This document shows, in pieces, positions 26,430-31,138 of a DNA stretch of 64,000 nucleotides. The notes under the pieces were generated by a model. That model saw only the letters and a list, made by a program, of their open reading frames with translations. It was not told the DNA's origin and made no database searches. The translations under genes were made by a program, and so were the position numbers. Numbering within the stretch: position 1 is the first letter of the stretch; each line of letters starts with the position of its first letter. This stretch comes from Psychroflexus salarius (GTDB lineage Bacteria > Bacteroidota > Bacteroidia > Flavobacteriales > Flavobacteriaceae): positions 1 to 64,000 of the forward strand of contig NZ_FQTW01000011.1 in the NCBI RefSeq assembly GCF_900129035.1, written 5' to 3'.

Positions 26430-26966
26430 ATGACTCAAGAAATTTATCAAGAAGCCATAAAATTTGCCGCAGAAAAGCATCAATACCAAACAGTACCTGG
26501 AACTGAATCTAGTTATTTATGGCACATTTCTAATGTAGCCATGGAAATAATGATGGCGCATCAAATAAAAAGCAATTTTGACCTTAATTATGCTGTACAA
26601 TTAGCATTGCTGCATGATACTTTAGAAGATACCGATACAGAATATTTAGAGTTAGAAGATAAATTTGGAGTAGAAGTAGCACAAGGAGTAAAGGTTTTAA
26701 CGAAGAATAATAATTTGACTTCTAAAAAAGAAAGGATGCTGGATAGTTTAAAGCGAATCAACGAAATGCCAAAAGAAGTTGGTGCTGTTAAATTAGCTGA
26801 TAGAATCACTAATCTTCAAAAACCTCCTAGAAATTGGACAAAAGAAAAGATTCAATATTATTGGGATGAAGCGAAGTTAATTAACCAAACGCTTCAAGAC
26901 AAGAACGAATACTTAAACAAACGCTTAGACAATAAAATAGCAGAATATGAAGTTTATGCGAAATAA
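26430..26966 (+). CDS. HD-domain small alarmone hydrolase-like protein
   Basis: 178 aa. RelA/SpoT-type HD hydrolase signature: YLWHISNVA, LLHDTLEDTDTEYLEL (HDxxED), and VKLADRITNLQKPP (the conserved K-L-x-D-R-x-x-N motif). There is no synthetase, TGS or ACT domain, so it fits a stand-alone (p)ppGpp hydrolase (MESH1/SAH-like). Its activity is inferred from motifs. It sits alone in an accessory-looking stretch between gene remnants and the 22-bp array. Confidence 0.8.
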   Translation: MTQEIYQEAIKFAAEKHQYQTVPGTESSYLWHISNVAMEIMMAHQIKSNFDLNYAVQLALLHDTLEDTDTEYLELEDKFGVEVAQGVKVLTKNNNLTSKKERMLDSLKRINEMPKEVGAVKLADRITNLQKPPRNWTKEKIQYYWDEAKLINQTLQDKNEYLNKRLDNKIAEYEVYAK

Positions 26967-27077
26967 AACTTAATTATAGCTAATACTTAATTACATATAC
27001 AATTAAATTGTTCTTATAGACTAATTAGCCAAATACTTAGCTTAAAAATTGAATTTGATGAGTTATAATTAATTAAT

Positions 27078-27231
27078 GTACATTAAATGAACAAATAAAG
27101 CACAATAAATACATCAATAATGTACATTAAAATATAAAATAAAGTACATTAAATGTGAAAATTATGTACATTAAATATTAAAATATAGTACATAAAAATT
27201 AAAAGTTTTGTACATTAATTATAAATTGAAA
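27078..27231. repeat. Seven-unit, 22-bp-period iteron-like array (core GTACATTAA)
   Basis: Cores start at 27078, 27100, 27122, 27144, 27166, 27188 and 27210, exactly 22 bp apart. Five are perfect GTACATTAA (27078, 27122, 27144, 27166, 27210), one is GTACATAAA (27188), and one is degenerate GCACAATAA (27100). The other 11-13 bases of each unit are A/T-rich and not conserved. The centre GTAC is palindromic. A constant period with a conserved core resembles iterons or a phased protein-binding array. Protein and function unknown. Confidence 0.8.
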
Positions 27232-27350
27232 ATTATAAGTTAATAAAACAAACCTATGTATTTAGAAGCTTATTAATCTTGTTTTAAATGAGACATCAAT
27301 TGAAAGTAATGCTATCTCAATTAGGCTAAAGTGTTAACTTAAGATGAGAC

Positions 27351-27413
27351 ACTAGATGAATTAAATGATTTTATCTATCTGATATCATTTGAAGGATTCA
27401 GATGTCATCTAGT
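27351..27413. repeat. Nested inverted repeats beside the array
   Basis: Perfect 9-bp arms ACTAGATGA (27351-27359) and TCATCTAGT (27405-27413) enclose ATCTGA/TCAGAT (27377-27382, 27398-27403) and, as an alternative pairing, AAATGAT/ATCATTT (27363-27369, 27384-27390). It could fold into a cruciform or an RNA hairpin with two competing states. Confidence 0.5.
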
Positions 27414-27521
27414 TAATAACTAAAGTCTAGTGTTGAAAATTATAGTTTTAAATCAAATTTCTAAGGCTATCATTAAATATATAATAGAATAGTACAAACC
27501 TTAGTTTATTTATAAAAAAGA

Positions 27522-27554
27522 AGCCAAAACCCAGTATTGATGAGGGTTTTGGCT
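27522..27554 (-). terminator. Rho-independent terminator of tRNA-Arg
   Basis: Perfect 11-bp stem AGCCAAAACCC / GGGTTTTGGCT with an 11-base loop; in the minus direction it is followed by a TCTTTTTTAT tract. It lies five bases past the tRNA 3' end. Confidence 0.88.
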
Positions 27555-27559
27555 GTTTG

Positions 27560-27633
27560 TGACCGCGGCAGGATTCAAACCTGCAACCCTCAGAGCCGAA
27601 ATCTGATATTCTATTCAGTTGAACTACGCGGCC
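27560..27633 (-). tRNA. tRNA-Arg, anticodon UCG
   Basis: 74 nt. The acceptor stem pairs GGCCGCG with CGCGGTC (one G-U at 2-71), discriminator A73, CCA not encoded. Anticodon stem TCAGA/TCTGA around loop TTTCGGC gives anticodon UCG (plus-strand positions 27597-27599), reading CGA/CGG Arg codons. T stem is GCAGG/CCTGC. Oddities: the D loop reads AACTGAATA (A at position 19 instead of G) and the T loop TTTGAAT (U at 56 instead of C), so the 19-56 tertiary contact becomes A-U. It has its own promoter and terminator. Confidence 0.93.
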
Positions 27634-29917: not shown

Positions 29918-31138
29918 TTAAGTTATAGCTGTTGCTTTAGAATATATACCAACATGCTTAGCGCATTTTATAAAGGCGTGGTAAGTCCGTTCTATATCGA
30001 AATCTAAACCAATAGAAAATCGTACTAAACCTTCGCTTAATCCCATATTAAGCTGCTCTTCTTCACTAATTTCTGAAGATGTTGAACTCCCTGAAGCACT
30101 AAACAGGGTCTTATAAAAGCCTAAGCTCACAGCGATATAGCCTACATTTTCGGCTTGTAAAGCTTCCATAAATGCATTTGCTTGCTTTAATGTGCCTAAA
30201 TCAAGTGTTAATAAACCGCTGTACCCAAATTCAGGATGTATTTGTTGCTGCATTTTTTTATGACTTTTATGCGATTTTAATCCTGGATAGACGACTTTAA
30301 AACCAGCTTGTTCTAAACATTGGGCCAAATACATGGCGTTTTTGCTATGCTGCTGCATACGTATTGGTAACGTACGTAGATTTTTAAGTATGGAAGCTGC
30401 TCTTAAACTATCAAGCGTTTGCCCTAAAAGCATTGCAGCCCCATGATTGACATCTTTCAACGCGTTAATAAATTCAGTTGAGCCGCATACAACACCACCA
30501 ACCGTATCTGAAGAGCCGTTAATAAATTTAGTCAGACTATGAATAACCACATCTGCTCCAAATTCAGTAGGCGTAATTACCAAGGGTGTAAACGTATTAT
30601 CTACAACAAAGGTGAGATTGTATTTTACTGCAAGCTTCTTTAAGCCTTCTAGATCAGCCACTTCGAGTAAAGGATTGCTTAAAGCTTCACAGTATAAAAC
30701 TTTAGTGTTTGTGTTGATGGCCGCTTCAACTTGGTCTAAGTTGGTGATGTCTACAAAATGAGTCTGAATCTTAAAATCAGGTAGAAAGTTTTTCATAAAA
30801 GCATAAGAACCACCATAAATAGTTCGGCTTGATACAATTTCGTCTCCAGATTTACATAATTGTAAGAGCACCGACGTAATGGCACCCATACCAGAAGCGA
30901 AAACTTGTGCATCTTCGGTCGCTTCCATTTTTGCTAAGGCATCACATAAATACTGATTGCCTGGTGAAGAATGTCTGGAATAAAGGTAGCAACCTTCCTG
31001 AGTGCCTTCAAAAGTATCACTCATGGCTTTAGCGGTTAAAAATGTGTAGGTTGAACTATCTGAAATAGAAGGATTTACACCGCCTTGTTCTCTAAAAAAT
31101 TGAAGATCTTGAATGGCATTTGCTGGTTGATGTTTCAT
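29918..31138 (-). CDS. Cys/Met metabolism PLP enzyme (gamma-lyase/synthase family)
   Basis: 406 aa from ATG 31138 (MKHQPANAIQDLQFF). Fold type I trans-sulfuration family: YLYSRHSSPGNQYLCDALAK, FASGMGAITSVL, TIYGGSYAFMKN, VDNTFTPL, and the PLP lysine in HSLTKFINGSSD. The residue matching the special Cys of methionine gamma-lyase (YGCT) is Gly here, so a strict MGL is not assured; it may be a cystathionine or methionine lyase. It is divergent from an Lrp-type regulator with a dyad operator between them. Confidence 0.84.
   Translation of the reverse strand: MKHQPANAIQDLQFFREQGGVNPSISDSSTYTFLTAKAMSDTFEGTQEGCYLYSRHSSPGNQYLCDALAKMEATEDAQVFASGMGAITSVLLQLCKSGDEIVSSRTIYGGSYAFMKNFLPDFKIQTHFVDITNLDQVEAAINTNTKVLYCEALSNPLLEVADLEGLKKLAVKYNLTFVVDNTFTPLVITPTEFGADVVIHSLTKFINGSSDTVGGVVCGSTEFINALKDVNHGAAMLLGQTLDSLRAASILKNLRTLPIRMQQHSKNAMYLAQCLEQAGFKVVYPGLKSHKSHKKMQQQIHPEFGYSGLLTLDLGTLKQANAFMEALQAENVGYIAVSLGFYKTLFSASGSSTSSEISEEEQLNMGLSEGLVRFSIGLDFDIERTYHAFIKCAKHVGIYSKATAIT

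Follow-up and report, generated by a model that had tools for sequence, protein, structure and literature searches.

Layout and periodicity of the window array

The stretch of DNA analysed here (the window) comprises 64,000 nucleotides from Psychroflexus salarius and contains a strictly periodic array between an HD-domain gene and a tRNA-Arg gene. The HD-domain gene is a neighbour of the array and only a putative member of the same unit. The features at the locus are the following:

26430 to 26966, forward strand: HD-domain gene (Pfam, PF13328; alarmone-hydrolase-like according to the sequence-only reading), which stops 107 bp before the array
27002 to 27077, no strand assigned: left flank common to the C13 copy of the array beside tRNA-Arg(tct) (83% over 76 bp)
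27073 to 27222, forward strand: seven-unit array with a 22-bp period and the core (TTAA)TGTACATTAA (repeat and periodicity analysis)
27121 to 27633, no strand assigned: right part of the putatively duplicated segment, with the array end, a spacer, a terminator-like stretch and the tRNA gene (alignment)
27559 to 27633, reverse strand: tRNA-Arg(tcg) (RNA gene annotation)

Within the array (window positions 27078-27218), the cores start at 27078, 27100, 27122, 27144, 27166, 27188 and 27210, a spacing of exactly 22 bp. The core GTACATTAA is intact in five of the seven units, while the core at 27188 reads GTACATAAA (one change) and the core at 27100 reads GCACAATAA (two changes). Re-reading the units thus confirmed the seven cores, the exact period and the distribution of changes that the sequence-only reading had described. 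Its further claim of freely drifting spacers needs correcting, as the other copies in the genome retain the unit order and much of the spacer sequence. The periodicity is far above chance: the array scored 53 at a lag of 22 and 61 at a lag of 44, the next best score anywhere else in the window was 16, and shuffling, whether of the dinucleotides of the whole window (40 times) or of the local 79%-AT stretch (200 times), reached 20 at most. Tandem Repeats Finder likewise gave its top two scores to the array (14 rows in 64 kb). A 14-bp palindrome, TTAATGTACATTAA, is centred on the first unit (27073-27086); over all units of the window array, dyad symmetry was not significant (p 0.24).

Copies of the array in the genome

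We searched the whole genome for the core at 22-bp spacing and found, at up to three mismatches, five arrays (designated C13, C18, C20, C33 and C36, of which C20 is the window array) and scattered single pairs. With zero or one mismatch the pattern occurred at five places and the reversed control gave none; with three mismatches there were 37 matches versus 5 for the reversed control. Pairs of TGTACA 22 bp apart marked the same five clusters and four isolated pairs. The core is thus confined to five places in a search with an empty reversed control, and it does not recur as random AT-rich repeats throughout the genome, the outcome that the sequence-only reading had named as fatal to its view. 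All five copies lie outside the listed open reading frames and consist of 4-7 units each, and are therefore dispersed, intergenic and variable in unit number, as is characteristic of miniature inverted-repeat transposable elements (MITEs) and of BrickBuilt (see below).

Three of the copies (C13, C20 and C36) have flanks in common, with 89-95% identity over the 455-515 bp that extend from the array in the direction of tRNA-Arg. Between C20 and C13, the identity is 89% over 515 bp for the segment at 27121 to 27633, and the opposite flanks are also alike, at the 83% over 76 bp listed above. The C13 array adjoins tRNA-Arg(tct). On C36 (90% over 455 bp), the copy stops at a tRNA-Arg of which just the 3' end is left, and a tyrosine integrase gene comes next, an arrangement as expected for an island boundary. 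Because these three copies have such long flanks in common, the window array is, judging from the alignments, most likely a duplicate carried along with the tRNA-Arg segment. By eye, C18 and C20 are also alike over a short stretch of their right flanks.

Conservation of the array in position, which the sequence-only reading had proposed to test, was not found. Of 26 genus genomes that have the 5'-nucleotidase-like neighbour gene, 25 showed no array near it within about 1.5 kb, some of these loci ending early at contig ends, and the array near this gene is thus seen in one of 26. The tRNA-Arg(tcg) gene itself occurs at this locus in only four of the 26 genomes (G000, the window's own, and G020, G017 and G003). 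In the closest relative, G020, the tRNA-Arg(tcg) gene is accompanied by a gene that by eye resembles a type I restriction subunit. Direct repeats of GGCGACACAT are present at the tRNA 3' end of this G020 locus (L213), and also at C36 (L034), beside the integrase and the tRNA 3' end; both sites are presumed island boundaries.

A sister array lies upstream of an HU-HIG gene

One of the five copies, C18, lies 66 bp directly upstream of a gene for a 138-aa protein of the HU-HIG family (PF18291; G000:C18:256762-257178). The protein matches PF18291 with 100.8 bits (cut-off 26.2), and PF00216 matches it likewise. Its AlphaFold2 model (mean pLDDT 88.9, pTM 0.70) has HU and IHF chains first among its top PDB matches, with 4fmr of Bacteroides vulgatus also among the top, and the protein is accordingly predicted to have the HU fold. 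The pairing of array and gene is conserved in two genera: the distance from array to start codon is 66-102 bp in the window's genome, G020, P. longus (G001), P. aestuariivivens (G021) and two Mesonia genomes (G102 and G321), and in a third Mesonia record the array likewise lies upstream of the HU-HIG gene. The Mesonia core is TTGTACAATATT, in which the centre TGTACA is kept and the flanks of the centre differ. Among 60 genomes, including the window's own, all four that have the HU-HIG gene showed the pattern, as did one of the remaining 56; G024, a relative without the gene, has one single matching pair, and G166 has a match to the TGTACA pattern without a traced HU-HIG gene. About 3 kb from the HU-HIG array of the window's genome, a Flavo-1 RNA (RF01705) directly precedes the tmRNA (L032, 5821-6360).

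Arrays at corresponding places allowed the changes between genomes to be compared. G102 and G321 have four arrays each, which occupy corresponding positions in both genomes (aroA/queA, an ECF-sigma-like gene, kdsA and HU-HIG; names assigned by eye). In these four orthologous pairs the 8-bp core was changed at 1 of 128 positions, compared with 16 of 224 in the remainder of the arrays (Fisher p 0.008). The window's genome and G020 share the positions of their HU-HIG and serS arrays, whose lengths differ by whole 22-bp units, and a tRNA-Arg(tct) array is present in both, with flanks that align poorly. The low rate of change in the core and the whole-unit indels in the two aligned Psychroflexus arrays support the proposal of the sequence-only reading that selection maintains phased sites for a DNA-binding protein, and the HU-HIG protein encoded next to one of the arrays is a putative binder.

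Arrays beside HU-HIG genes at large

Arrays with a period of 21 or 22 bp are enriched beside HU-HIG genes. Located HU-HIG genes numbered 70, which an 80% similarity filter reduced to 56, including four located through their arrays (G000a, G001a, G021a and G102) and one truncated copy (G010c). We called an array where a 500-bp flank reached a score of at least 17, as the best of lags 4-41, at period 21 or 22. By this definition 31 of the 56 genes have an array (12 upstream and 19 downstream) and 25 lack a strong one within their 500-bp flanks; with lags 15-41 instead, the count is 32 of 56, including G302, which is really a 7-bp repeat. Among genes located by homology only, 27 of 52 have a 21/22-bp array. 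Only 1 of 568 control pieces was positive, and this piece holds the window genome's own C13 array; it is also the single positive among 99 AT-rich controls. At any period, 11 of the 568 reach a score of 17, whereas 31 of the 38 HU-HIG flanks with a score of at least 17 have a period of 21 or 22. The HU-HIG flanks average 31% G+C. About half of the tested HU-HIG genes thus have an array of their own, often with different core letters; AAACCTGCGCAGGTTT, CAAACGTTTG, TAATACGTATTA and AAACTTATGNTAAGTTT are among these diverse cores.

The same periods dominate the upstream regions taken together: averaged over 69 of them, the top three lags (of 12-59) were 22, 21 and 44. When only upstream regions were scanned, 21 or 22 was the best period, at a score of at least 16, for 18 of 69 HU-HIG genes, compared with 10 of 271 other genes. 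On our own reading, five of these ten lie in loci picked by their arrays (L071, L072, L073, L080 and L082) and four more pick up an array that belongs to an adjacent HU-HIG gene (L135, L192, L193 and L195), leaving L141. The downstream arrays emerged on scanning whole loci. In a phylum-wide homology set of 13 further genes, unfiltered for redundancy and left after setting apart the 4 of 17 rows that the first set already contained, arrays were found for 3 of 13 at a score of 17 and for 5 of 13 at 15, all downstream and with period 22; 10 of these 13 genes stay below 17, and two upstream flanks show other periods (23 and 28, scores 16-19). Of seven records of distant HU relatives in Bacteroidales, five had enough upstream sequence; two of the five have 22-bp upstream arrays and another two show a period-21 signal built of shorter repeats. 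Among phage-labelled matches, none of the five examined (of seven) had a 21/22-bp array at a score of 17.

Symmetry and descent of the arrays

Dyad symmetry reached p <=0.05 in 22 of the 38 arrays with a usable null, a number that derives from 41 scanned items, not all of them independent and six scoring below 16, after removal of three with an empty null (G401.1, G401.C85 and G087). The scan also took in the window and Mesonia C8 arrays, neither of which is beside an HU-HIG gene. For the HU-HIG (C18) array of the window's genome, dyad symmetry was not significant (p 0.40); AT-rich columns give high nulls in this test.

A tree of 77 HU-HIG proteins comprises 46 rows with a strong array, 9 with a weak signal and 22 with none; the 46 divide into 27 downstream, 16 upstream and 3 on both sides, G302 being wrongly included. 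The clade of the window genome's HU-HIG gene (support 100/98) has 14 rows, with nine upstream arrays, one weak signal and four without an array, and TGTACA centres are present in seven of the nine. Outside this clade, an array of TTGTACAAG lies upstream of an HU-HIG gene of G076 (L177, G076:C5, 19-101). Given a TGTACA-type array in another clade, the centre may have arisen twice. Across 41 arrays, G302 among them, the similarity of cores correlated with that of the proteins (Spearman 0.17, with 27 of 2000 permutations as high, for pairs below 70% identity), which is a weak trend and partly expected from the joint descent of neighbouring DNA.

Other HU-HIG genes provide further arrays. The second HU-HIG gene of the window's genome (L134, G000:C21) has a palindromic 21-bp array of AAACTTATGNTAAGTTT downstream (2413-2491, dyad p 0.005), of which no dispersed copies were found elsewhere in that genome. 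In G166, a six-unit array of differing palindromes adjoins an HU-HIG gene (L266, G166:C27, 4454-4596) and has four further copies with the same unit order (L262, L263, L264 and L265), near which no HU-HIG gene was recognised among open reading frames of at least 80 aa in the 6-8 kb of each locus. With the G166 array dispersed and the C21 array single, block dispersal applies to some arrays and not to others. Upstream of an HU-HIG paralogue in G001 and G022 (L145 and L146), at about 90-116 bp, there are repeats of TGTGGA(A/T)AACTT roughly 12 bp apart, which resemble DnaA boxes; in G012 and G019 a comparable position is taken by TGTTGAAAACTA repeats.

Proposed explanation and alternatives

We propose, with a probability of roughly 65%, that the units of the window array are clustered binding sites of the HU-HIG protein encoded elsewhere in the genome beside the sister array. 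We infer the binding, and with it the use of dimers, their cooperative assembly, autoregulation and any role of the window site, from the arrangement described above. With the TGTACA centres as their sites, HU-HIG dimers would sit 22 bp (about two helical turns) apart and hence on roughly one side of the helix, and they would build one cooperative, bent or wrapped, phased nucleoprotein complex. At the C18 copy, the array would probably control the protein's own gene, and the four other copies, intergenic as far as the contigs reach, may serve as structural, silencing or insulating sites. More generally, upstream arrays could mediate autoregulation, and downstream and dispersed arrays could have a structural, insulating or silencing role. 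A point against the HU-HIG model is that the arrays of some clades precede the gene and those of other clades follow it, a mixed placement that simple operator logic does not fit throughout.

Alternatively, the arrays could be non-coding mobile repeats of a MITE- or minisatellite-like kind (cf. BrickBuilt and REPIN) that are copied as a block, with the nearness to HU-HIG genes reflecting origin or hitchhiking. The unit order is indeed kept in C13, C20 and C36, the three own copies at tRNA-Arg sequence include one beside an integrase, and the four same-order G166 copies have no recognised HU-HIG gene within their 6-8 kb. We nevertheless consider this explanation unlikely, as it does not account for a fixed 21/22-bp spacing shared by unrelated cores beside many divergent HU-HIG genes, nor for the conservation of the core relative to the spacers and the whole-unit indels; moreover, a mobile block could still bind the HU-HIG protein. 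More doubtful still is that the arrays are operators of another regulator with HU-HIG as its target, or arm sites of an integrase. One array does lie in the presumed HU-HIG promoter region and three own copies are near tRNA attachment sites, but the core varies between HU-HIG clades and arrays also occur downstream of genes. Integrase arm sites came into consideration because of the tRNA-Arg and integrase next to C36, and were dropped since the HU-HIG, serS-side and kdsA-side arrays have no recognised integrase beside them; the latter two lie between converging genes, with no integrase by eye among up to six nearest listed open reading frames. Least probable of all, and in our view barely tenable, is neutral slippage of an AT-rich stretch, perhaps maintained by DNA curvature. 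The composition of the window stretch and of the HU-HIG flanks would suit it, but shuffles fall short of the array score, the only positive AT-rich control holds the C13 array, the core is more conserved than the rest, and other cores, such as AAACCTGCGCAGGTTT, contain G+C.

A plasmid-iteron or origin function, the first of which had been raised by the sequence-only reading, was rejected, no replication gene having been recognised and no DnaA box lying nearby. No replication initiator gene was recognised by eye among open reading frames of at least 80 aa at 20-35 kb of the window or among the nearest open reading frames at the other arrays, the Pfam scan behind this reading and that of the neighbours having covered eight proteins, and the array recurs at five chromosomal places. 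The origin marks that the same reading had considered, DnaA boxes or a GC-skew switch near the array, did not appear either: no TTATCCACA-like site (up to one mismatch) lies within 3 kb of the array, the nearest being at 30597. In the single contig of G020, sampled at 20 stretches, the GC skew is mostly negative at 190-960 kb and mostly positive at 1.1-1.9 Mb, with exceptions, and the arrays at 18 kb, 1254 kb and 2045 kb bear no clear relation to it, nor to an origin or terminus pattern. An SOS box was also discarded as a candidate, the letters GTAC being absent from the main text of a paper on Bacteroidetes LexA (PMC8565304), a comparison confined to that main text and separate from the SOS motifs themselves.

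Comparison with known systems

The arrays beside about half of the tested HU-HIG genes suggest that a chromosome-packing protein is matched with DNA sites of its own, a pairing so far undescribed. HU proteins are generally regarded as binding DNA with little sequence preference; if HU-HIG genes own phased, lineage-specific arrays, sequence-addressed HU chromatin would become directly testable, and the array beside each HU-HIG gene would be a ready candidate ligand for dozens of uncharacterised proteins. It is conceivable, though rather less probable than our proposal for the window array, that HU-HIG proteins form an addressable, sequence-specific HU family in which many paralogues own a private palindromic 21/22-bp array, sometimes with dispersed copies, that nucleates a phased particle; a Bacteroidota genome might then carry several orthogonal centromere-like or silencing loci. 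Burroughs and colleagues (in Cell Cycle, 2017) reportedly named HU-HIG-type clades of the HU/IHF superfamily, and are said to have suggested that they act in chromosome partition and in defence against mobile elements. The likeness of our candidate binder to the HU-HIG clade (PF18291) of this superfamily consists of its Pfam match and its modelled HU fold. In a literature search that covered few subscription papers, we recognised no publication that treats the HU-HIG protein itself or arrays next to its genes, and such arrays were not found in the available parts of PMC6749651 and PMC5771137.

In plasmid iterons and partition-site arrays, phased sites lie close to the gene that encodes the protein binding them. 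The present arrays resemble these in that phased sites adjoin the gene of a candidate binder, and the window array consists of phased direct repeats in the iteron range of about 17-22 bp; they differ in having no recognised replication gene and in lying on chromosomal contigs at several sites per genome. In REPIN/RAYT systems, a gene has related palindromic repeats both adjoining it and dispersed in the genome, as is seen here, but the RAYT protein is transposase-like, whereas the product of the present gene is an HU-type DNA binder and the repeats are arranged as phased arrays. The closest published analogue appears to be BrickBuilt of Porphyromonas gingivalis. BrickBuilt, described by its authors as a MITE, consists of imperfect 23-nt direct repeats in 19 dispersed intergenic copies of variable unit number, and its shortest copy, of 84 nt, lies beside a gene listed as encoding a DNA-binding protein (PF00216) (PMC4596501). 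According to the same description it differs from our arrays in its period of 23, its leader and tail regions and its size of up to about 23 units (PMC4596501). What the two have in common, as far as that account goes, are dispersed intergenic repeats with one copy beside a PF00216 gene, a family that also matches the HU-HIG protein of the window's genome. The pairing described here may also provide minisatellites already known from the literature to be dispersed, BrickBuilt among them, with a protein that binds them.
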